From positions 7,704,551 through 7,768,550 of the forward strand of contig OZ036013.1 in the NCBI GenBank assembly GCA_964035015.1: a stretch of 64,000 nt of DNA, given 5' to 3'. Source of the DNA: Corallium rubrum (lineage: Eukaryota; Cnidaria; Anthozoa; Scleralcyonacea; Coralliidae). The translations under genes were made by a program, and so were the position numbers. The notes under the pieces are model-generated. The model was not told the DNA's origin, searched no databases, and saw only the letters and a list, made by a program, of their open reading frames with translations. Below, in pieces: positions 465 to 60,780 of this stretch; the stretch's first letter is position 1, and every line of letters starts with the position of its first letter.

Positions 465-2915
465 TTAGAATGACTCGTAAACATCCGGTATGTCAATATG
501 GTCGTTTCCTGAGTTAGGGATCCTTTGGGAATACCAAGCCTCTAAAAACAAACGTTCATGGTAATTCCTAGCGTGATTGATGACAAGAACATTGTCAAAA
601 TCAGGGTAATGATCGTATTGTTCAGCGTGTTTAGCTATTTTTGAATATTTATCACAATTGGATACAGCTCGTTTATGTTCTTTTATTCTGGTCTTAAGTG
701 CTCTGTCCGTTTGACCAACGTATGTGAAGTCACAACTAGAACAGCAAATCTTGTAGATGACACTTTTGGTTTGCTCGACTTCTAATTTATCCTTAGGTTT
801 AGGAAATTGGTGATGGAGGGTAGATAAGGGCTTGTAACCGACTTTGATATTTTCTCTTCTTAAAATTCGTGAGATCTTTTCAGAGACACCTTTGATATAA
901 GGCAATACAACAAAACTTGGTTTAGAAGGATGATCGAGGTTATTGGAATTGCTGTCATCAATAATAGAGTTATTGTTACTGTTATTAGGATGAGAAGTTG
1001 TTCTTTTTAAATCACAACTCTTGATGAATTTTCGTGGGTAGCCATTTTCCCTCAATACCTTAAATACGTGTTTTCTCTCTCTACGTTTTCCTCTGTTAGA
1101 AGAAGGTATTTTCTCAGCTCTATCGAGGAGGGTATTTACGACCGATCGTTTGTGTTGTGTAGGATGGTGGGAGGAATAATCTAGATATCTGTCCGTATGG
1201 GTTTGTTTTCTGTATACGTCTACCTGTACGTGATTATTTCTTCGGATAGTTACGGTGTCCAAAAATGGAAGGCGATTTTGGGTTTCTATCTCAAAAGTAA
1301 ATTGTATATGACTATCAATGGAGTTGAGATGATTGTGAAATTGATCTACAAAATCTTTCTTTAAGCAGGAATGGCTGTCATCCACATATCTGTACCACCA
1401 GCGAGGAGGATGTGGTGCGGTGGAAATTGCAGTTTCTTCGATGTACTCCATAACAAGGTTGGCAATGGTAGCGCTAATTGGAGATCCCATAGCGCAGCCA
1501 AAAATTTGTTGGAAGTATTCATGTTTGTATGTGAAATAGCTGTTACGGAGAACAAATTCTAACAATCTCAAAATATTGGGGACGGATAAATCAGTCCGAC
1601 TTGACAACTGCTTATCTCGTCGAAGTCTCTGTTGAGTTACCTGTAAGGCAAGGGCGATCGGTATTGATGTAAATAAGGACACTACGTCAAACGACACCAT
1701 AACTTCATCATCTGAAATGTGTTGATTCTTGACCTGTTGAGCAAAGACAACACTATTTTTTACTGAATGATTTCCATTAAGGAGAGGAGATAGTATGGTT
1801 ACCAGATGTTTCGAAAGATTGTAGGTCGAGAAATTAACACAGCTAGTTATAGGACGAAGGGGTATGTTTGGTTTGTGGATCTTAGGCAAACCATAAAACC
1901 TCGCAGGAATTGCATCAGTGCTGTGAAGATGGTGATAAAGTTTTTCATGTATTTGGTTCTTGTCCGGGTTATGTTCAGATGGTAGTTTCTTAATTTCTTG
2001 TAACAATTTAGTGAGATCCTTGTCGACTTTTGATGTTGGATTTCTTCGCTTGTCTGTTATTTTTAAGTAGGTTTCTTTGTCACTTAGTAAGTCATTAATT
2101 TTAGTCTCGTAATCAGTGGAGTCCATAACCACGATTGCTTTTCCTTTGTCCGCAGAAATTAACATGATATCACGGTCTTCTTTAAGATTCTTTAGAGCAC
2201 GACTCTGCTGGATGGGCATGTTGCGGCCTATAGGAGGTCTGCTATGTTTTAGAAGATTAACAACTGAAGCACGTATGATTGCCTTCTTGCTGTCGGGAAG
2301 ATTATAAATTCCTGATTCAATGCTTGCCACAATGTTTGGTATAGGGATCGATTTAGGAGTTAATGCGAAGTTCAATCCATGGCGTAGAGCTTGAGTTTCA
2401 ATGGTGTTTAATTGGCGGCTGGATAAGTTCACTACCCATCGGTCTTTATCTAAATAATTATTGCTGTTGTTGAAAGCTCCAATCTCGGTAAGTTTACGGG
2501 TATGTCTAGTCTGAATTATGTTCTTTGTTATTTGTGTGTTGTGTTTTACAGCGTTGGTCAACATGTCAAAATGATCTTGCGATAAAGTAGAGGATAAAGT
2601 CCGTAGATATTCTGAACAATTTTGTTCTAGTTGCTTGATTCTTTGATGTCCATGTTGTATACGTAGCCTCATGAAACTCCACCCAGCTTTTGTTGTAATC
2701 CTACGACCTTCATTACAGTTGATAGGTGGACTAAAACGAAGGCTTTTAGGTAAGATATTCGCCTTTTTCAGTTCATGATTGAACGTTAGATGTTGCTTCT
2801 GTTTGACAATATTGATGGATTTCTTCTCCAGGTTTCTGGCAATTTTCATAACTTGTGAACCATAACGCGAGTTAATTAAACTAAAAATGCTAAAATTGCA
2901 GCCAGGAATAAACAT
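465..2915 (-). CDS. Penelope-like reverse transcriptase with C-terminal GIY-YIG endonuclease (PLE1 copy A)
   Basis: An intact 816-codon ORF, a typical length for an endonuclease-positive Penelope-like element. Residues about 250-580 form the reverse transcriptase: a FYGLPKIHKP motif near 340, the catalytic Asp in FDVVSLFTS (D410), MGSPIS near 476, YVDD at 510-513 and PFLDT near 550. A CCSSC cysteine motif (724-728) leads into the GIY-YIG nuclease at about 730-795, with TYVGQT and Arg743 in KTRIKEH as the expected catalytic features. Penelope proteins nick DNA and copy their RNA at the target. The first ATG lies just after the pseudo-LTR, and a second Met at codon 23 is an alternative start. 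It differs from the right-hand copy by very few residues (for example P4 versus L4), so the palindrome looks young. Confidence 0.92.
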   Translation of the reverse strand: MFIPGCNFSIFSLINSRYGSQVMKIARNLEKKSINIVKQKQHLTFNHELKKANILPKSLRFSPPINCNEGRRITTKAGWSFMRLRIQHGHQRIKQLEQNCSEYLRTLSSTLSQDHFDMLTNAVKHNTQITKNIIQTRHTRKLTEIGAFNNSNNYLDKDRWVVNLSSRQLNTIETQALRHGLNFALTPKSIPIPNIVASIESGIYNLPDSKKAIIRASVVNLLKHSRPPIGRNMPIQQSRALKNLKEDRDIMLISADKGKAIVVMDSTDYETKINDLLSDKETYLKITDKRRNPTSKVDKDLTKLLQEIKKLPSEHNPDKNQIHEKLYHHLHSTDAIPARFYGLPKIHKPNIPLRPITSCVNFSTYNLSKHLVTILSPLLNGNHSVKNSVVFAQQVKNQHISDDEVMVSFDVVSLFTSIPIALALQVTQQRLRRDKQLSSRTDLSVPNILRLLEFVLRNSYFTYKHEYFQQIFGCAMGSPISATIANLVMEYIEETAISTAPHPPRWWYRYVDDSHSCLKKDFVDQFHNHLNSIDSHIQFTFEIETQNRLPFLDTVTIRRNNHVQVDVYRKQTHTDRYLDYSSHHPTQHKRSVVNTLLDRAEKIPSSNRGKRRERKHVFKVLRENGYPRKFIKSCDLKRTTSHPNNSNNNSIIDDSNSNNLDHPSKPSFVVLPYIKGVSEKISRILRRENIKVGYKPLSTLHHQFPKPKDKLEVEQTKSVIYKICCSSCDFTYVGQTDRALKTRIKEHKRAVSNCDKYSKIAKHAEQYDHYPDFDNVLVINHARNYHERLFLEAWYSQRIPNSGNDHIDIPDVYESF

Positions 2916-3093
2916 ATTGAAAGTATAGGGCTTGACACTGGCTAATAAAAACGTTAAGAACTACGTTTATTAAAAACTAAACAAGACGTTTCGACCAACA
3001 ACTTAGGTCTTCGTCGGTTAAAATAGTGAATAACTGAGAGTCAAAACTGACTTTATAAAGGTTCAGAGGTTATGTAAATTAGCTTTAAAACGG
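2916..3093 (-). repeat. PLE1 3' non-coding segment (pseudo-LTR part)
   Basis: This lies between the stop codon of partial copy B and the start codon of copy A, read on the minus strand. The same roughly 180-base segment recurs at 248-464, 5343-5520 and 7972-8148. It contains a conserved stem-loop, GACC...GGTC followed by GAAAC, which resembles the core of a hammerhead ribozyme but has C in place of the invariant U4. By analogy with other Penelope elements it probably holds the promoter of the downstream copy. That role is inferred. Confidence 0.6.
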
Positions 3094-3723
3094 TTAGAAT
3101 GACTCGTAAACATCCGGTATGTCAATATGGTCGTTTCCTGAGTTAGGGATCCTTTGGGAATACCAAGCCTCTAAAAACAAACGTTCATGGTAATTCCTAG
3201 CGTGGTTGATGACAAGAACATTGTCAAAATCAGGGTAATGATCGTATTGTTCAGCGTGTTTAGCTATTTTTGAATATTTATCACAATTGGATACAGCTCG
3301 TTTATGTTCTTTTATTCTGGTCTTAAGTGCTCTGTCCGTTTGACCAACGTATGTGAAGTCACAACTAGAACAGCAAATCTTGTAGATGACACTTTTGGTT
3401 TGCTCGACTTCTAATTTATCCTTAGGTTTAGGAAATTGGTGATGGAGGGTAGATAAGGGCTTGTAACCGACTTTGATATTTTCTCTTCTTAAAATTCGTG
3501 AGATCTTTTCAGAGACACCTTTGATATAAGGCAATACAACAAAACTTGGTTTAGAAGGATGATCGAGGTTATTGGAATTGCTGTCATCAATAATAGAGTT
3601 ATTGTTACTGTTATTAGGATGAGAAGTTGTTCTTTTTAAATCACAACTCTTGATGAATTTTCGTGGGTAGCCATTTTCCCTCAATACCTTAAATACGTGT
3701 TTTCTCTCTCTACGTTTTCCTCA
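3094..3723 (-). pseudogene. PLE1 copy B, 5'-truncated (end of RT to GIY-YIG)
   Basis: The open reading frame matches the last roughly 208 codons of the 816-codon PLE1 protein, starting near G-K-R-R-E-R-K and including the whole GIY-YIG domain. The reverse transcriptase is absent because the copy stops at the palindrome centre. The apparent ATG at 3684 is internal to the original frame. It sits just upstream of copy A in the same orientation and so forms its pseudo-LTR. Confidence 0.88.
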
Positions 3724-5342
3724 GTGACAAAGAAACCTACTTAAAAATAACAGACAAGCGAAGAAATCCAACATCAAAAGTCGACAAGGATCTCACTAAA
3801 TTGTTACAAGAAATTAAGAAACTACCATCTGAACATAACCCGGACAAGAACCAAATACATGAAAAACTTTATCACCATCTTCACAGCACTGATGCAATTC
3901 CTGCGAGGTTTTATGGTTTGCCTAAGATCCACAAACCAAACATACCCCTTCGTCCTATAACTAGCTGTGTTAATTTCTCGACCTACAATCTTTCGAAACA
4001 TCTGGTAACCATACTATCTCCTCTCCTTAATGGAAATCATTCAGTAAAAAATAGTGTTGTCTTTGCTCAACAGGTCAAGAATCAACACATTTCAGATGAT
4101 GAAGTTATGGTGTCGTTTGACGTAGTGTCCTTATTTACATCAATACCGATCGCCCTTGCCTTACAGGTAACTCAACAGAGACTTCGACGAGATAAGCAGT
4201 TGTCAAGTCGGACTGATTTATCCGTCCCCAATATTTTGAGATTGTTAGAATTTGTTCTCCGTAACAGCTATTTCACATACAAACATGAATACTTCCAACA
4301 AATTTTTGGCTGCGCTATGGGATCTCCAATTAGCGCTACCATTGCCAACCTTGTTATGGAGTACATCGAAGAAACTGCAATTTCCACCGCACCACATCCT
4401 CCTCGCTGGTGGTACAGATATGTGGATGACAGCCATTCCTGCTTAAAGAAAGATTTTGTAGATCAATTTCACAATCATCTCAACTCCATTGATAGTCATA
4501 TACAATTTACTTTTGAGATAGAAACCCAAAATCGCCTTCCATTTTTGGACACCGTAACTATCCGAAGAAATAATCACGTACAGGTAGACGTATACAGAAA
4601 ACAAACCCATACGGACAGATATCTAGATTATTCCTCCCACCATCCTACACAACACAAACGATCGGTCGTAAATACCCTCCTCGATAGAGCTGAGAAAATA
4701 CCTTCTTCTAACAGAGGAAAACGTAGAGAGAGAAAACACGTATTTAAGGTATTGAGGGAAAATGGCTACCCACGAAAATTCATCAAGAGTTGTGATTTAA
4801 AAAGAACAACTTCTCATCCTAATAACAGTAACAATAACTCTATTATTGATGACAGCAATTCCAATAACCTCGATCATCCTTCTAAACCAAGTTTTGTTGT
4901 ATTGCCTTATATCAAAGGTGTCTCTGAAAAGATCTCACGAATTTTAAGAAGAGAAAATATCAAAGTCGGTTACAAGCCCTTATCTACCCTCCATCACCAA
5001 TTTCCTAAACCTAAGGATAAATTAGAAGTCGAGCAAACCAAAAGTGTCATCTACAAGATTTGCTGTTCTAGTTGTGACTTCACATACGTTGGTCAAACGG
5101 ACAGAGCACTTAAGACCAGAATAAAAGAACATAAACGAGCTGTATCCAATTGTGATAAATATTCAAAAATAGCTAAACACGCTGAACAATACGATCATTA
5201 CCCTGATTTTGACAATGTTCTTGTCATCAACCACGCTAGGAATTACCATGAACGTTTGTTTTTAGAGGCTTGGTATTCCCAAAGGATCCCTAACTCAGGA
5301 AACGACCATATTGACATACCGGATGTTTACGAGTCATTCTAA
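3724..5342 (+). pseudogene. PLE1 copy C, 5'-truncated (RT and GIY-YIG)
   Basis: The frame is open from the palindrome junction and corresponds to about codon 278 onward of the PLE1 protein, beginning at the segment S-D-K-E-T-Y-L-K. It keeps the RT motifs (FDVVSLFTS, YVDD) and the complete GIY-YIG nuclease but lacks the N-terminal 270 or so residues. The first ATG at 3801 is an internal Met, not a native start. It stands upstream of the full copy D like a pseudo-LTR. Confidence 0.88.
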
Positions 5343-5520
5343 CCGTTTTAAAGCTAATTTACATAACCTCTGAACCTTTATAAAGTCAGTTTTGACTCTC
5401 AGTTATTCACTATTTTAACCGACGAAGACCTAAGTTGTTGGTCGAAACGTCTTGTTTAGTTTTTAATAAACGTAGTTCTTAACGTTTTTATTAGCCAGTG
5501 TCAAGCCCTATACTTTCAAT
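5343..5520 (+). repeat. PLE1 3' non-coding segment between copies C and D
   Basis: This is the inverted equivalent of 2916-3093. It ends in CTTTCAAT directly before the ATG of copy D. It carries the same GACC/GGTC stem followed by GAAAC, a hammerhead-like core with the U4-to-C change. Confidence 0.6.
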
Positions 5521-7971
5521 ATGTTTATTCTTGGCTGCAATTTTAGCATTTTTAGTTTAATTAACTCGCGTTATGGTTCACAAGTTATGAAAATTGCCAG
5601 AAACCTGGAGAAGAAATCCATCAATATTGTCAAACAGAAGCAACATCTAACGTTCAATCATGAACTGAAAAAGGCGAATATCTTACCTAAAAGCCTTCGT
5701 TTTAGTCCACCTATCAACTGTAATGAAGGTCGTAGGATTACAACAAAAGCTGGGTGGAGTTTCATGAGGCTACGTATACAACATGGACATCAAAGAATCA
5801 AGCAACTAGAACAAAATTGTTCAGAATATCTACGGACTTTATCCTCTACTTTATCGCAAGATCATTTTGACATGTTGACCAACGCTGTAAAACACAACAC
5901 ACAAATAACAAAGAACATAATTCAGACTAGACATACCCGTAAACTTACCGAGATTGGAGCTTTCAACAACAGCAATAATTATTTAGATAAAGACCGATGG
6001 GTAGTGAACTTATCCAGCCGCCAATTAAACACCATTGAAACTCAAGCTCTACGCCATGGATTGAACTTCGCATTAACTCCTAAATCGATCCCTATACCAA
6101 ACATTGTGGCAAGCATTGAATCAGGAATTTATAATCTTCCCGACAGCAAGAAGGCAATCATACGTGCTTCAGTTGTTAATCTTCTAAAACATAGCAGACC
6201 TCCTATAGGCCGCAACATGCCCATCCAGCAGAGTCGTGCTCTAAAGAATCTTAAAGAAGACCGTGATATCATGTTAATTTCTGCGGACAAAGGAAAAGCA
6301 ATCGTGGTTATGGACTCCACTGATTACGAGACTAAAATTAATGACTTACTAAGTGACAAAGAAACCTACTTAAAAATAACAGACAAGCGAAGAAATCCAA
6401 CATCAAAAGTCGACAAGGATCTCACTAAATTGTTACAAGAAATTAAGAAACTACCATCTGAACATAACCCGGACAAGAACCAAATACATGAAAAACTTTA
6501 TCACCATCTTCACAGCACTGATGCAATTCCTGCGAGGTTTTATGGTTTGCCTAAGATCCACAAACCAAACATACCCCTTCGTCCTATAACTAGCTGTGTT
6601 AATTTCTCGACCTACAATCTTTCGAAACATCTGGTAACCATACTATCTCCTCTCCTTAATGGAAATCATTCAGTAAAAAATAGTGTTGTCTTTGCTCAAC
6701 AGGTCAAGAATCAACACATTTCAGATGATGAAGTTATGGTGTCGTTTGACGTAGTGTCCTTATTTACATCAATACCGATCGCCCTTGCCTTACAGGTAAC
6801 TCAACAGAGACTTCGACGAGATAAGCAGTTGTCAAGTCGGACTGATTTATCCGTCCCCAATATTTTGAGATTGTTAGAATTTGTTCTCCGTAACAGCTAT
6901 TTCACATACAAACATGAATACTTCCAACAAATTTTTGGCTGCGCTATGGGATCTCCAATTAGCGCTACCATTGCCAACCTTGTTATGGAGTACATCGAAG
7001 AAACTGCAATTTCCACCGCACCACATCCTCCTCGCTGGTGGTACAGATATGTGGATGACAGCCATTCCTGCTTAAAGAAAGATTTTGTAGATCAATTTCA
7101 CAATCATCTCAACTCCATTGATAGTCATATACAATTTACTTTTGAGATAGAAACCCAAAATCGCCTTCCATTTTTGGACACCGTAACTATCCGAAGAAAT
7201 AATCACGTACAGGTAGACGTATACAGAAAACAAACCCATACGGACAGATATCTAGATTATTCCTCCCACCATCCTACACAACACAAACGATCGGTCGTAA
7301 ATACCCTCCTCGATAGAGCTGAGAAAATACCTTCTTCTAACAGAGGAAAACGTAGAGAGAGAAAACACGTATTTAAGGTATTGAGGGAAAATGGCTACCC
7401 ACGAAAATTCATCAAGAGTTGTGATTTAAAAAGAACAACTTCTCATCCTAATAACAGTAACAATAACTCTATTATTGATGACAGCAATTCCAATAACCTC
7501 GATCATCCTTCTAAACCAAGTTTTGTTGTATTGCCTTATATCAAAGGTGTCTCTGAAAAGATCTCACGAATTTTAAGAAGAGAAAATATCAAAGTCGGTT
7601 ACAAGCCCTTATCTACCCTCCATCACCAATTTCCTAAACCTAAGGATAAATTAGAAGTCGAGCAAACCAAAAGTGTCATCTACAAGATTTGCTGTTCTAG
7701 TTGTGACTTCACATACGTTGGTCAAACGGACAGAGCACTTAAGACCAGAATAAAAGAACATAAACGAGCTGTATCCAATTGTGATAAATATTCAAAAATA
7801 GCTAAACACGCTGAACAATACGATCATTACCCTGATTTTGACAATGTTCTTGTCATCAACCACGCTAGGAATTACCATGAACGTTTGTTTTTAGAGGCTT
7901 GGTATTCCCAAAGGATCCCTAACTCAGGAAACGACCATATTGACATACCGGATGTTTACGAGTCATTCTAA
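5521..7971 (+). CDS. Penelope-like reverse transcriptase with C-terminal GIY-YIG endonuclease (PLE1 copy D)
   Basis: Intact 816-codon ORF, nearly identical to copy A but on the opposite strand. All RT motifs (D410, YVDD at 510-513, PFLDT) and the GIY-YIG motif with Arg743 are present without stops or frameshifts, so the protein could be functional. The N-terminal roughly 250 residues are basic, as in other Penelope proteins, with no separate domain that I recognise. The ATG follows the pseudo-LTR directly. Confidence 0.92.
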   Translation: MFILGCNFSIFSLINSRYGSQVMKIARNLEKKSINIVKQKQHLTFNHELKKANILPKSLRFSPPINCNEGRRITTKAGWSFMRLRIQHGHQRIKQLEQNCSEYLRTLSSTLSQDHFDMLTNAVKHNTQITKNIIQTRHTRKLTEIGAFNNSNNYLDKDRWVVNLSSRQLNTIETQALRHGLNFALTPKSIPIPNIVASIESGIYNLPDSKKAIIRASVVNLLKHSRPPIGRNMPIQQSRALKNLKEDRDIMLISADKGKAIVVMDSTDYETKINDLLSDKETYLKITDKRRNPTSKVDKDLTKLLQEIKKLPSEHNPDKNQIHEKLYHHLHSTDAIPARFYGLPKIHKPNIPLRPITSCVNFSTYNLSKHLVTILSPLLNGNHSVKNSVVFAQQVKNQHISDDEVMVSFDVVSLFTSIPIALALQVTQQRLRRDKQLSSRTDLSVPNILRLLEFVLRNSYFTYKHEYFQQIFGCAMGSPISATIANLVMEYIEETAISTAPHPPRWWYRYVDDSHSCLKKDFVDQFHNHLNSIDSHIQFTFEIETQNRLPFLDTVTIRRNNHVQVDVYRKQTHTDRYLDYSSHHPTQHKRSVVNTLLDRAEKIPSSNRGKRRERKHVFKVLRENGYPRKFIKSCDLKRTTSHPNNSNNNSIIDDSNSNNLDHPSKPSFVVLPYIKGVSEKISRILRRENIKVGYKPLSTLHHQFPKPKDKLEVEQTKSVIYKICCSSCDFTYVGQTDRALKTRIKEHKRAVSNCDKYSKIAKHAEQYDHYPDFDNVLVINHARNYHERLFLEAWYSQRIPNSGNDHIDIPDVYESF

Positions 7972-34365: not shown

Positions 34366-35475
34366 TAACCTCGTCTCCAGGGCCATTTGTGAGTGCTTGG
34401 CGCAGATGGCGGACAAAAGCAAGATGGCCGGGAAAAATCGCCCTGGCGCAGGCTGAGCTATCACCACGTCTGATTGACCGAAATAACATTGGATGTTTTA
34501 GGTATTCTGATTGGCGGAAGCAAGGCTGGCGCGCAGGCTAACTCGCGGGCATCGGGTTAAAGGGCTCAAATTCTAAATAAGTGATGGCGGCAAATTTAGA
34601 AACAACTTCAAAATAAATGAAAATGTGAGCAAAGCTGGCGAAACACCCAAAACAAACGTCGAAAGAGTGTGTAATGATGGGTTGTGTCGTCTTTGTGTCC
34701 TGCCATAAAACCAAGACCGTGGGGCGACCAAATTGTTTTTAATCATCTGATAGCCTCTTCTGCGCGGTTGTTCCATGCCATGTGGTCAGGTTTTTCTGAT
34801 TCCAAAAAAAATCAAATATTCCTGCATGGATCAGAACTGCCTAGTTTCAAAGATAAAAACTAAACGATCAAATGATCAGTAAGTTGGGACTATATCAGCA
34901 ATTTCTGACCGTTTTTCAATTATTTTACTTTGTGTGTCCTTTTCTTTTCTTTTTTTTTTTACAATATAATTTAATATTATCAGCTAAATCTTTTCTTTTT
35001 TTATCGTATATCAAACGAACTTTGCTCTTTCCCTTTAAAAAACTCTTTAGTGACTTTGTAATATTATATTTCGACATAATCTCCCTAGATGAGCTTTGCT
35101 CTTGGAGAAAATGTTTGTACTCCAAAATATGTTTAAATATAAAAAAAAAATGTTTTCTAAATTGTTAACGGACTTTCCTTATCCGGTTGGCAAGACGCCA
35201 ATGGTATCCAGCCCAGTGATAGCGACTCAAGAATAACAGTTATTTTGGTTTTAAGAAAATGTGTTGTAGTTAGACTTATCCAAAGCATATCGAACGCATG
35301 CAGTGAACGAACACATTTAACGTGAGACGCGATAAACTTAGTAAAGACTGGGTCCGGGTCCATTATATGGCGCATTTTTGGCAGCCTTTCCCAGGGCCAT
35401 TTGTTCCCGCTATTTTGTTTTTGGCCGCCATCCTGGCCCAGCCCAACAAATTAAATGGCCCTGGAAACGAGGTTG
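34366..35475. mobile_element. Non-autonomous relative of the RecQ-ZAD element, 1.1 kb
   Basis: Its two ends, 34366-34458 and 35386-35475, are diverged copies of the 92-bp TIRs of the RecQ-ZAD element, in the correct inverted orientation (AACCTCG...CCAGGGCCATTTGT at the left, CCCTGG...CGAGGTTG at the right). The flanks TACAATACT and TAGAATACT form a 9-bp target duplication with one mismatch. The flanking DNA is a repeat seen elsewhere in the window (reversed at 21430-21500), which supports a clean insertion. The interior has no helicase. Confidence 0.75.
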
Positions 35476-35781
35476 TAGAATACTGCCAAAGTATTCTGGT
35501 AGTCTCAGTCAACCAACACCGTCGTCACGTCATCGTGCAAGTGGTCTATTGAGCAGCGTCAACTTTTCTGTATTTTGGACTCAAATTAAAACCTAATAAA
35601 TAGCAGTTACACGACAATCTTTATTTTAGTATTTTACTGACCGTCAATCAATCTTCGATCATACACTATATTTTATATGGCGGTCTCTTGTCGTAGACAG
35701 ATTTTAATTTTTCCATTTGTAGTACACTTTGAATTAAGAAATTAAAGATTTTCAAATGAAGACACAAAACACTTAAACTAT

Positions 35782-52609: not shown

Positions 52610-52619
52610 CGTGGCGGCC
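52610..52619 (+). repeat. Target-site duplication, left (CGTGGCGGCC)
   Basis: A perfect 10-bp direct repeat with 58275-58284. It flanks the RecQ-ZAD element, and removing one copy plus the element restores a sequence seen uninterrupted, in inverted form, at 60690-60720 (GCGGCGGCCATCTTAC). Confidence 0.85.
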
Positions 52620-52873
52620 CAACCTCGTACCCAGGGCCATTTGTAGGGGCTGGGCCAAGATGGCGGCAAAAAACAAAATGGCGGGAACAAATGGCCCTGG
52701 TGGAGGCTAGCTCAAAATGCGCAGTATATTGCGCATTTTTTTAACTAGAACTCAGTCCTTTACACAATAATTATACCTAATTATTGCATAATTATGTTTT
52801 ATTTAAAATATATTTTCCCACGCCGCGGAGCAAGACCAACCTGACATTGCTGACAAGGCCAAAATACAAAAAT

Positions 52874-54631
52874 ATGTCGCTCACATTAAATTTTTTCTTT
52901 CAATGCGTTCGGTACGCACTTGAAAAGTTTAGTTGTAACGATGTATTCCTTAAAGTAAAGCAGCTTATTATTCTGGAATCACTGCTCCTTGGGCGAGATA
53001 CAATTGCTATTTTGCCGACCGGATACGGGAAGTCAATTATTTTTCATTTGCTTCCCTTTCTGTTTGAACGTTACCATGGACCGGAGACTGGAGAACGAAT
53101 TGTGTTGGTCGTTGCCCCCCTGAACTCTATAATCTTCGACCAGCTAAAGGAATTGAACAAAAGGGGAATTAAGAGTGGAGTTTTGAAAGCTAAATGTGAG
53201 AAAAGAAGTCAAAAGCACGATGTTAAACTGGAAGAGCAAGGCGAAGTCGAAGGTAATGTTGATGTTGACGATGTTGACAACGATATAAATGAATACTTTA
53301 TTGAACAGGACGGTGAATTGAGTTTAATACAAAGTGGTTCGTGTCGAGTAGTTTTCACCCACCCTGAAGCATTCATTTCATGCAAAGAAGGCAGAAAATT
53401 ATTACGCAGCGATGTTTATCAACAACGGGTTGTTGCGTATGTTATCGACGAAGCCCACATCATGATCGAGTGGGGACATGATTTTAGAGTTGATTACAGC
53501 CGTCTTTGTGTCTTAGCATCCATATTCCCACATTCACCAGTAGTTGTCCTAACTGCAACAGCTCCTACCAAGCACATCAAAGCTATAAAAAACATTTTGG
53601 TAATAGGGAAATGCAAAACTGTCATTGGCGATCTAGATAGGCCCAACATATATCTAGAGAAGAAGAGAAGGAAGCCGGCTCGCCTAGGTGCTGAAAGCTA
53701 TGAGTCAGTGCTTTTACCTTTTGCCATGGGGTTAAGAGATATGTTGGTCAATTATCCCCTAACCATTATTTATCTTCCATTAAAATGGTGTGGCTACGCT
53801 TACAAGTTTTTTCTTGAGGTGCTAGGCAACAAATCCCATTACCCACATGATGGTATCAAAAATTCTCAAACCAGCCTAATTGCCCAGTATCATGCACCCC
53901 AAACAGCAGAAATGAAAGCTGAAATACTTAGGCAGTTGACAGGGGATTCCAGTCAGTCAGTCATTCGAGTAGTTTTTGCCACAGTTGCAATTGGTCTTGG
54001 TGTTAACATCCTAAATGTCAGACAAGTTGTCCATTGTGAAGTGCCAAGGACAATGGAGTCCTATTATCAGGAAATAGGTAGAGCAGGTCGGGATGGCAAA
54101 CCTGCAAAAGCCATTCTGTATTTCAATGCCACCGATATTGCACCAAATAAACCAGGCATGACGGAAGAGATGCGCAACTTTTGTCTGGATGAAGACACTT
54201 GTATGCGCAAATGCATTCTCTCATATCTTGGTTCAAAAATTTCAAATTCATATAGTGCAAACAACTGCTGCAGTAATTGTCAGGAGAACACAGATAGGAC
54301 TTATTTATCAGCTACTAGCATATCACTAGTACATGATCCTTTAAGTGACGAGAAGTGTCATCCTTCCGCTGTTCGAGTTACAACACAGGAACAACGAGTA
54401 CAATTGCTTGTTAAATTGAAACAATATCGCCGGAAATTGGGCAGCAGTCGCTGCAAGTTTGGCAGTATTGATTTAAACACAGGTATCACTTTGCAGTTAC
54501 TTTCTGAAATTACTGCCAAATGTGAATATGTTTCAAGTGCAGAAGACATGTACAATTTGTTTCAGATCTGGGACATCACTGATGCTCATGCAATTTATGA
54601 TATAATCCAACAAGTTCATAGTATTGATTGA
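52874..54631 (+). CDS. RecQ-type superfamily 2 DNA helicase of the RecQ-ZAD transposon
   Basis: The frame is open from 52784. I prefer the ATG at 52874 (M-S-L-T-L-N), giving 585 codons, because the preceding 30 codons are AT-rich and unlike helicase sequence. In numbering from 52784: Walker A L-P-T-G-Y-G-K-S at 77-84, motif Ia V-A-P-L-N-S near 110, an acidic insertion at about 150-175, H-P-E-A-F at 193-197, motif II D-E-A-H at 222-225, motif III T-A-T-A at 257-260, motif V A-T-V-A-I-G-L-G-V-N near 400, motif VI Q-E-I-G-R-A-G-R-D-G at 429-438. A Cys cluster (C467, C473, C477, C496, C499) fits the RecQ zinc-binding module. There is no HRDC domain. RecQ enzymes unwind DNA 3' to 5' using ATP. The gene is intronless and intact. 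It probably serves transposition rather than host repair. Confidence 0.85.
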   Translation: MSLTLNFFFQCVRYALEKFSCNDVFLKVKQLIILESLLLGRDTIAILPTGYGKSIIFHLLPFLFERYHGPETGERIVLVVAPLNSIIFDQLKELNKRGIKSGVLKAKCEKRSQKHDVKLEEQGEVEGNVDVDDVDNDINEYFIEQDGELSLIQSGSCRVVFTHPEAFISCKEGRKLLRSDVYQQRVVAYVIDEAHIMIEWGHDFRVDYSRLCVLASIFPHSPVVVLTATAPTKHIKAIKNILVIGKCKTVIGDLDRPNIYLEKKRRKPARLGAESYESVLLPFAMGLRDMLVNYPLTIIYLPLKWCGYAYKFFLEVLGNKSHYPHDGIKNSQTSLIAQYHAPQTAEMKAEILRQLTGDSSQSVIRVVFATVAIGLGVNILNVRQVVHCEVPRTMESYYQEIGRAGRDGKPAKAILYFNATDIAPNKPGMTEEMRNFCLDEDTCMRKCILSYLGSKISNSYSANNCCSNCQENTDRTYLSATSISLVHDPLSDEKCHPSAVRVTTQEQRVQLLVKLKQYRRKLGSSRCKFGSIDLNTGITLQLLSEITAKCEYVSSAEDMYNLFQIWDITDAHAIYDIIQQVHSID

Positions 54632-57495
54632 TACTGTACTTATTATTATTATTATTATTGTTAATTATTAATAATGTATGTTGACTGCTTTTTAGATTTG
54701 ACCATTCATCTACAATACAGTAAAAGGTTGTAAGTGTTGATTAACTAGTGATTAGTGACATGTTATTATTTTTGGAGGGGGAATTTTGTTTTTTCCTGAT
54801 TTTTAAAAATGTACAAAAGATCCCCTTAGAAGATAGCTAGAATTTGATGACACATTCTGACTATTACCTGCTTGAATCAAATTATAAATTGAATTAGTTA
54901 TCTGATGGTACATTTTAAACACATCAAATTACTTTTAAAGGAATTGTATTACATGGTTATACTACAGTATATAAATGCTGCTGTATAAATTGCTATGAAA
55001 CTCTGCTCTTCAACCACTGTTTCTTATTTAAAGTGGTCTGAAATTTACTTCCCTCAATTTCTAAACAAAATATTGAACATTTTCCCTCATTGCATTGCTC
55101 TCTTCCACCTTCACAAATAGTACCTTGTTCTTTATATAAATACTTTATATAGTTATTTACTGTATTATACTTTAAAATACTCATTAATAATTCATGAAGA
55201 AAATTAAAAAGAAATAAATGTTTAAACAGGTGTTGTAAATCAGATACAGCATTGTATTAGCATACTAATCAGGACCCATTGGCTCAAATTGAGCTTTTTC
55301 CTTGTTTAAATAATATGTTTTTGCCTTTTCTATGACTGCTAAACAAAGTATTCATGATATAAACTCATCGTAGTGTAGGTAAGATTGATACATGTACCTG
55401 TATGGGATTTACAATGGCTCGCCTTTGGCTCACCATTGTGAATCCCATACAGTTCAGCCACTCATAATTATTGTATCTATTACTTGTAATGGACTGTATG
55501 AAATTACTGTGTTGTAAAACTGTGTTTTTTCCCCCAGATATTATAAAGCCATTTGCTTTTTTACTATTCAGGGTTCAAAATAATGGCTGATTAGAGGAGT
55601 TGTGAGGTCAAACTCTTGCCTTGCCAGTCATTTTGACCAGTTAGTTTGATTCAATTGATAAATAAAGTGCAAACATTTTTTCTCATAAATTTATAATTGC
55701 TGACAAGTGGAAATACAATAGCAAGCCAGGCAAGAGACTACAACTCAGTTTAGAAACTTATGTTTTTGTTTTTCCCCAGCCTTATACTATGTTATTAAGT
55801 ATCACACATTTGTGTATCAGTGTATATGACTGATGCCTTAATGCCTTTAAACTTTAGTTACAAGAAAGTATCTACATAGTTTGAAACATTTGACCAACCA
55901 AAACAGCAGTACTATAATCTAAGCTAAATTTGACTTGGTTTTTTATCTTGATGTGCAACCTGCCAGCCATTGTTTCGAAGCTTGCTAATATATTTAACAA
56001 CATGATCTGATGATTGTGATACATGTATACAAACGGTTTCAAAATCATTTCATTTGTAAATACCTGTAGTCAGTTAATTTTTCTTGTGTTACTAATTCTG
56101 CATAAAGGCAGGAATGTGAAAATTTTATTTATATACATTACTATATTACATTGTATTTACAGTCAAAATGGAAATACCTTCCCACCTCTTCTTCTGTAGT
56201 TTGTTGCGGAAGATTGCATTGTTACTAAGGAAACATACAGAAACGTGAGAAAAATCTAGTGATAAAAGTCGCTTATTCTTGATTTATATTTGTTTGTTGA
56301 TATCGATTTGGGAGGAACATTCGTTATATTATGATTAATTCCATGAAAGCTAAATGATATTTTTATTCACATTTTTCGACAAAAAATTTTCCTCACGCTT
56401 CAGTAGCGACTACAGAAATACAGTAATACACAACAAACTACACTGTACAGAAGCGGAAGTGGGAAAGTATTTCCATTTTGACTGTAGATTTTGGCCTAAA
56501 ATGGCCTCACAATTTATTTAAAATAATTGACAGATAAATTTAAAATAAATGACAAATCAAAATAGTTGCTTCAGATTACTTCAAATCCAATAAAAAAGGA
56601 CCCCTATCTAAAGCCTCAGGGCTTGAAATTTGACTGAATTTTCGGCGTAATTTCTTGTCCACTTTTTCTTGAAGGCCGTACACATGAACAATTATTCCCT
56701 GCATGCTCAAAACTTGGCATCTCGGCCAGCTTTTGAACAAGGCTACTTGTCAAGGAAAAAACTTGTCAAATTGTGTCATACACACGAGTAAATAACTTGT
56801 CAAAAGAATTAAAACTCGTCAAGAAAAACGTGTTCGTGTGTGTGCAAAGTTTGTTGGTTGCTGCAGTTTTGCACATTACAGATGTTTTCTTTTTACTGAA
56901 ATTGTCTTTGGGTACTTTTGTTTATTCAGTATAAATCTAGTAAACAGGCAGTTCGACAGTCTGTTTTCGTTTGTCTGCAAACAAGCAATGTGTCCAAGAT
57001 ATTGATATATTATAAATATTAACGATTTTTCCTGAGGTTTTATCTCAGTTGTAGCTGGTTTTATGGCTGTACGTTTAAGTGAAATTAACCTGTCTGTCAA
57101 ACAAGTGTATACACTTGTATTTCAAAAATACAATTTTATTTATAAAAACCTCTTTGGCAAGAAAGTAAAATCATAGAGGGAAAATCTAGTCATTGAAAGT
57201 AAAAGTAAAGTATTGCCTATATTTGCAAGTGAATTGTTATTTTTCACACAAACATTTTTAATGTGTCGAGTCGCTCTTGGACTTTGTCTACACATATGTT
57301 TTTGACTAGAAATATAAATGTCTTTGTTTTTTATGTAGTAAACCAATGGTATAGAAAAGTAGGCTTTCTTGGTTGCTTCGTTAAATCACTGAATGTGCAT
57401 AAACATGTATTTTACATGTATTATAAAATTGGAAAATAATAGTCGCGTACGTGAGTCGTCAAGTAACTATCTGACCAAAGACAAATTTTGTCATT
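54632..57495. other. Central region of RecQ-ZAD element, no transposase found
   Basis: AT-rich, with stops in all frames and only short ORFs. It contains a hairpin at 55396-55456 (GTATGGGATTTACAATGG and CCATTGTGAATCCCATAC) and a MITE at 56158-56489. Later exons of the ZAD gene would have to lie here, but none is recognisable. Confidence 0.5.
56158..56489. mobile_element. MITE nested in the RecQ-ZAD element
   Basis: TACAGTCAAAATGGAAATACC at the left and GTATTTCCATTTTGACTGTA at the right are inverted, with TTCCCAC / GTGGGAA adjoining. It interrupts the intron or non-coding centre of the element. Confidence 0.85.
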
Positions 57496-57519
57496 TTATA
57501 TAAACTGAGAAACACGTAC

Positions 57520-57954
57520 CTGTGACTGTGTCTGTGGTTCTGATAACTGAGTGTCATTTTCTAGCAACTTGCTTCTTTTCGAGTAGTTAATCTCCGTGCA
57601 CTCCGAAAAATCTATGTACCTTTTTGTTGGGTTTTGGCTTTTCAAACTGAACGAAAGCTGCGCTTCGCCGACCATAGTATTAAATTTCTCCCAGCGTTGT
57701 AATTCGCTTTCGCATTTCCTGCAAATACATTTAGGAAGACCATCATCTTTTGATATCTGGATAGACAGGAAGTTTTCAATTTTCGTGGCCAAGTCTTTTC
57801 TTTCTCCAGATTTAGCGAAGATTTTAGTTCCTCCATGGCTTACTTCGTACGGCTGGGCGCATAGACGACAAGAACTATCGGTATCAAGTTTTCTTCTCTT
57901 GTGTTTTGTTTCAGGAGTCTCACGAATCCATGTAATATCAACGTTTTCACTCAT
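57520..57954 (-). CDS. ZAD-like zinc-finger protein, first exon, at right end of RecQ-ZAD transposon
   Basis: An ATG at 57954 starts M-S-E-N-V-D-I-T-W. A basic patch (K-H-K-R-R-K-L, about 18-23) could be a nuclear signal. C29-x2-C32 and C78-x2-C81, about 45 residues apart with I-F-A-K and D-G-L-P-K between, match the zinc-finger-associated (ZAD, zf-AD) fold that mediates dimerisation in insect C2H2 factors. Similar ZAD-like modules occur at the N-terminus of transposon-related proteins in cnidarians. The coding part ends at a CAG/GTACGTG donor at 57520/57519. The downstream exons are not visible, so the rest of the protein (possibly the catalytic part) is missing or unrecognised. Confidence 0.7.
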
Positions 57955-58274
57955 TTTACATTATGGAAAAGAAACGTTTGTTTAAATATCCCGCTACTTC
58001 GTCTTTGTTATTAATTTTACGATCCTTTTAAACCTAACCTGCGAATTGGGGTTGGTTTCGGGCGGGAGGGATATTTGTCAAACCTGAGTTTATTATTATA
58101 ATTTGATTTTAAAATAATAATAAAATGACGTAAATATCTAATTTATGCAATATGCTCTTGACCAATCAGAGGCTGAGATAGCCTAGCCTCCACCAGGGCC
58201 ATTTGTTCCCGCCATTTTGTTTTGATTCGCCATCCTGGCCCAGCCCCCAACAAATGGCCCTGGGTACGAGGTTG

Positions 58275-58284
58275 CGTGGCGGCC
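58275..58284 (+). repeat. Target-site duplication, right (CGTGGCGGCC)
   Basis: The perfect match to 52610-52619, immediately after the right TIR (…CGAGGTTG). Confidence 0.85.
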
Positions 58285-60267: not shown

Positions 60268-60780
60268 TATAAGGTTTTATGCTAGAACTTTTCCAAATTT
60301 GAATTCTCATTTGGATTACTCTGCAATAAATCAATCAAAACATAAAAGAAACCCATCACAGTAAACCATTTAATAATACGGGGTTTATACTACAAATAAA
60401 GAGAGAAACAAGTACACGCGCGGACTTGGAAGACATTTGTTTACCGACTATTTTGTTAATACCATGATTCGTGAAGCAAATACATAGGCAGCTATCTTTC
60501 GTAAAAAATAGCTTTTGCAAAGGGAAAAGAGAGTTGAAAACACTTAACTATTATATGAAATAAGATTACGAACCTTAAGTCGGTGGTAAATCTTCGCAGA
60601 CTTCTCGAATTTGGCGAAAAATGTCGTTAAACTGCTTTCCACTCCTATGTACGCCATATTGTTTACGACCCAAGTGGGTCCTAGTAAGATGGCCGCCGCT
60701 CCTCGCTTCCGGCATCAAAACCAAGGCGCGAGAAACAATAGATGCGCTATCCAGTCCTTTTATAGAGATCAGTGCGCGTA
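60268..60780 (-). repeat. Right arm of inverted promoter/exon-like segment in outer element
   Basis: On the minus strand: TATAAAAGG at 60764-60756, an ETS-like CCGGAAGCG, GGCGGCCATCTT, then an ATG at 60657 opening 28 codons (M-A-Y-I-G-V-E-S-S) to AAG/GTTCGT at 60574. It looks like a promoter with a short first exon directed toward the element centre. The protein is not recognised and the splice donor is weak. Confidence 0.45.

Follow-up and report, generated by a model that had tools for sequence, protein, structure and literature searches.

The stretch of Corallium rubrum DNA analysed here (contig OZ036013.1 of assembly GCA_964035015.1, positions 7,704,551 to 7,768,550 of the forward strand; 64,000 nt, hereafter the window) contains an element at window positions 52620-58274, which is bounded by a perfect 10-bp target-site duplication (TSD). 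As a preliminary description made from the letters alone had stated, it carries an intact open reading frame (ORF) for a RecQ-type helicase on the plus strand, facing an ORF with a ZAD-type zinc finger on the minus strand (Table 1). The terminal inverted repeats (TIRs), the left of which starts with CAACCTCGTACCCAGGG, show 92% identity across 92 aligned columns (E = 3e-33), and exact matches of the target sequence CGTGGCGGCC in the window, searched on both strands, are confined to the two flanks, in agreement with the earlier view that this is a discrete mobile element. As one G is common to the TSD and the TIR end, an 11-bp TSD is an alternative reading. A nearby sequence had been taken for a copy of the empty site; it is indeed inverted and uninterrupted, with a single target copy AGCGGCGGCC, but it is a diverged repeat with 2 differences in the target and hence serves as a proxy for the empty site rather than as the same locus devoid of the insertion. 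The helicase ORF exhibits the motifs PTGYGKS, DEAH and QEIGRAGRDG, with human RECQ1 as the closest solved chain (E 9.4e-39), and the ZAD ORF matches the zf-AD family with E 1.3e-15. A 44-bp inverted repeat within the element (56155-56489, 89% complementary, arms 247 nt apart) is perhaps a small nested insertion.

Table 1. Features of the element and related features in the window
Feature	Position	Strand	Remarks
Left TSD	52610..52619		CGTGGCGGCC
Left TIR	52620..52710	+	starts CAACCTCGTACCCAGGG
RecQ-type helicase ORF, intact	52874..54631	+	585 aa; first Met 52874, stop codon ends 54631
Deletion junction	56645..56646		~5.7 kb present in C1/C281 missing here; ~2 nt (GC) common to the breakpoints
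ZAD exon, first exon in the model of the ZAD-DUF6589 gene	57520..57954	-	Met 57954, ends at GT donor; four downstream exons deleted
Right TIR	58183..58274	-	
Right TSD	58275..58284		CGTGGCGGCC
Diverged repeat copy of both flanks, without insertion	60606..60759 (approx.)	-	empty-site proxy
Short second element, ~1.1 kb	34366..35476	+	related TIRs (80-85%); 9-bp TSD with 1 mismatch

Searches of the 474-Mb assembly (contigs labelled C1, C8, C201, C281 etc.), whose counts are lower bounds because scoring was confined to the top candidates (40 of 1303 for TIR, 150 of 160 for ZAD, 102 of 377 for DUF6589 and 74 of 1059 for RecQ), revealed relatives on other contigs in which the same TIRs surround RecQ, contrary to the case named as a refutation in the preliminary description, in which other copies of the TIRs never flank the gene. 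The relatives on C1 (11,390 bp) and C281 (11,438 bp) are complete, each with its own perfect 10-bp TSD. The relative on C201 is bounded by a 9-bp TSD, retains both termini and contains a large insert, of which 5 kb are N; that at C8:1.6M corresponds apart from some 300 bp at the right end, and those at C8:28.7M and on C122 are partial in the regions compared. The window copy aligns with C1 and C281 on either side of one junction, in two shared blocks of 98.3-99.6% identity, and the middle, about 5.7 kb in length, is gone. It has thus retained RecQ and the ZAD exon and lost the remainder of the putative transposase gene. The odd combination of RecQ with ZAD, for which a transposase too diverged to be recognised had been considered, is therefore explained by an internal deletion that took most of this gene. 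Recent activity of the element, suggested previously, is plausible, since the TSDs of C1 and C281 are perfect and the shared blocks nearly identical to the window copy.

The complete relatives permit a model of the deleted gene. In both C1 and C281 it comprises five exons on the minus strand, separated by GT-AG introns and all in phase 0, and encodes 963 aa with no internal stop, the two readings differing by one residue. According to this model, ZAD, which had been supposed to be a separate protein, is encoded by the first exon of the putative transposase gene; the body of the protein belongs to the Pfam family DUF6589 (PF20231; matches in two exons exceed the curated threshold), to which Pfam itself assigns no function. 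ZAD and DUF6589 occur within one protein also in some public sequences (42 of the proteins found were aligned and six scanned against Pfam, five of these six having been chosen because their listing showed ZAD); the named homologues come from Hydractinia and Clytia. A search of the PDB sequences with the DUF6589 profile gave no match up to E 10. The predicted structure of DUF6589 resembles the transposases of the P element, Hermes, RAG1 and Transib, on re-alignment only, the Foldseek match being not significant; the absence of a family from the re-alignment results excludes nothing. From the predicted structure and the conserved acidic residues we infer that DUF6589 is a DDE transposase of the RNase H fold. 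The unusual transposition mechanism envisaged in the preliminary description is not needed, since the complete element has its own DUF6589 protein, the predicted fold of which is DDE-like.

Target duplications recur across the TIR family. Both ends were found in 27 of the 28 copies tried (L065 has no recognised right end), and 26 of these 27 are flanked by TSDs of at least 9 bp (≤1 mismatch; perfect in 23), the failing copy being L053. The duplicated sequences vary among copies, and none of 754 mispaired left-right flanks passed the same test. In eighteen of the 27 copies the matched end motifs enclose an element of 385-386 bp, so the family includes non-autonomous copies, which must presumably have moved with a transposase from elsewhere. 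L025 and L026, each with one end unrecognised, were left out of the 28; they contain elements of about 715 bp (L025:1220-1938 and L026:1246-1958) with related TIRs around a ZAD coding fragment, which look like shortened derivatives within this transposon group.

The association of RecQ with DUF6589 extends well beyond this family. At least 99 RecQ matches merge into 68 loci and at least 107 DUF6589 matches into 102, and a DUF6589 locus lies within 10 kb of 36 of the 68 RecQ loci, against about 0.3 expected by chance; all 36 pairs are convergent, and their RecQ sequences show 26-51% identity to the window copy. The pairing is undercounted, because the 32 unpaired RecQ loci include the window copy and the copies on C1, C201, C281 and C8; the focal family's own DUF6589 exons are absent from the scored set. 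DUF6589 is found within 12 kb of 10 of the 52 merged ZAD loci, all ten upstream and on the same strand. Eight elements of other families have ends that begin with CAACCTCGT, and six of them exhibit a 9-bp TSD (≤1 mismatch; five perfect), the exceptions being C8:29.27M, without a TSD, and C1:67.0M, matching at only 7 of 9 bases. These eight represent about 5 families, since C82 and C87 belong to one family, as do C18, C39 and C8:29.27M; a pair on C8 (L082/L083) was compared once and then left out.

The comparison with known systems was based on gene content, predicted fold and TSD length. On re-alignment, the body of the putative transposase resembles the P element and Hermes (hAT) in its predicted fold; these groups, however, have 8-bp TSDs and are not known to carry a RecQ gene, and the TSDs here measure at least 9 bp. 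In AcademX the nuclease gene is of the XPG type. None of the 43 XPG_I matches in the genome lies within 15 kb of a scored DUF6589, RecQ or ZAD locus, and XPG co-localisation as a tie of DUF6589 to AcademX was therefore rejected. According to the available text of PMC10045372, AcademH makes TSDs of 9 or 10 bp and AcademX of 3 or 4 bp, tied to helicase and nuclease; the latter length differs from the at least 9 bp found in 26 of 27 copies here. With AcademH, on the other hand, the window copy and its relatives share a helicase gene, here of the RecQ type, and the length of the TSD, which is at least 9 bp in 26 of the 27 copies of the TIR family and 9 bp in six of the eight elements of other families. 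RecQ helicase is mentioned in Academ in an excerpt of PMC3627910, and the accessible part of PMC10799480 gives DEAD and Helicase_C as AcademH-type domains and places AcademH in three fungal phyla. ZAD, present here, is a point of difference, being unmentioned in the AcademH descriptions as far as these are available from PMC10045372 and PMC10799480. RecQ is likewise present in two sets of Kolobok DNA transposons in the accessible portion of PMC9587614, namely KolobokH, reported from fungi only, and Kolobok-1_CCri from a rhodophyte, with the helicase on the complementary strand; Kolobok, however, duplicates the 4-bp TTAA, in contrast to the longer TSDs of varied sequence here. No description of this element was found in the literature searched, as far as its text was available (including PMC9587614, PMC3627910 and PMC10027918).

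AcademH is thus the best-supported name, an assignment by description that rests on the helicase and the 9-10-bp TSD as given in the available part of PMC10045372, and the element, whose gene content was thought earlier to match no nameable superfamily, fits this described lineage. Very probably, the window holds a non-autonomous derivative, shortened by internal deletion, of a cut-and-paste DNA transposon of the AcademH type. A new superfamily would display the same anatomy, if the DUF6589 transposase were unrelated to Academ and the helicase and the 9-10-bp TSD had arisen convergently; the status of DUF6589 as a family of unknown function in Pfam, its lack of mention in the literature searched and the absence of XPG matches nearby speak for this reading, yet we consider it unlikely, as AcademH is described by this combination of helicase and TSD (PMC10045372, in part) and the title of the AcademH paper (Kojima 2020, Mob DNA 11:15) places the lineage in animals and fungi. 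The window copy by itself, which shows only two genes, could also suggest that RecQ and ZAD are captured host genes aboard a simple TIR transposon. But RecQ and DUF6589 are found facing each other repeatedly, across families with widely differing RecQ sequences, and ZAD is joined to DUF6589 in an open gene model, so this explanation was rejected as highly improbable. Least credible of all is that the match of TIRs and TSD is due to chance or to an assembly artefact, the latter a concern of the preliminary description; nothing was found in favour of this reading, and it is refuted by the separate copies on other contigs, which carry their own, different TSDs, and by the failure of every mispaired flank.

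The complete AcademH-type element would then be about 11.4 kb in length. A TIR of about 92 bp closes each end, the RecQ gene lies on the plus strand, and towards it, on the minus strand, runs a gene of five exons whose product, the ZAD-DUF6589 protein, would be the transposase. This transposase would bind the TIRs, cut the element out and insert it with a 9-10-bp stagger; ZAD may bind the ends or dimerise, and RecQ may unwind the ends or aid gap repair. Internal deletions arising via gap repair or end joining could give rise to non-autonomous copies such as that in the window, which would be mobile only with transposase supplied in trans.

Other repeats were noticed in the course of the analysis. 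A short second element with related TIRs lies elsewhere in the window (Table 1). Long ORFs in inverted, near-identical arms occupy window positions 465-7971; judged by eye, they resemble a reverse transcriptase that ends in a GIY-YIG-like part, the arrangement known from Penelope-like elements. The 43 places with XPG_I are more than expected from cellular XPG-type nucleases and may represent another transposon group; one such locus, L084, viewed over 8 kb, contains a HIRAN domain and, as judged by eye, a gene resembling EXO1, whereas a transposase was not recognised in these 8 kb.

By the deletion reading, an odd gene pair becomes a readable transposon. A function is suggested for the Pfam family DUF6589, of which the scored candidate set of this genome contains at least 102 merged loci, and the helicase is likely to take part in transposition, because RecQ faces the transposase gene across widely diverged families. 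THAP and BED domains have been taken from other transposases, and one may ask whether DUF6589 represents a large family of DDE transposases with ZAD as its DNA-binding module, from which the ZAD of insect ZAD-C2H2 factors was derived; we regard this as a long shot. Used as a query against proteins, the ZAD portion of P0034 retrieved only P0034 itself. The ZAD exon offers a candidate origin, open to test, for a domain known chiefly from transcription factors of insects.
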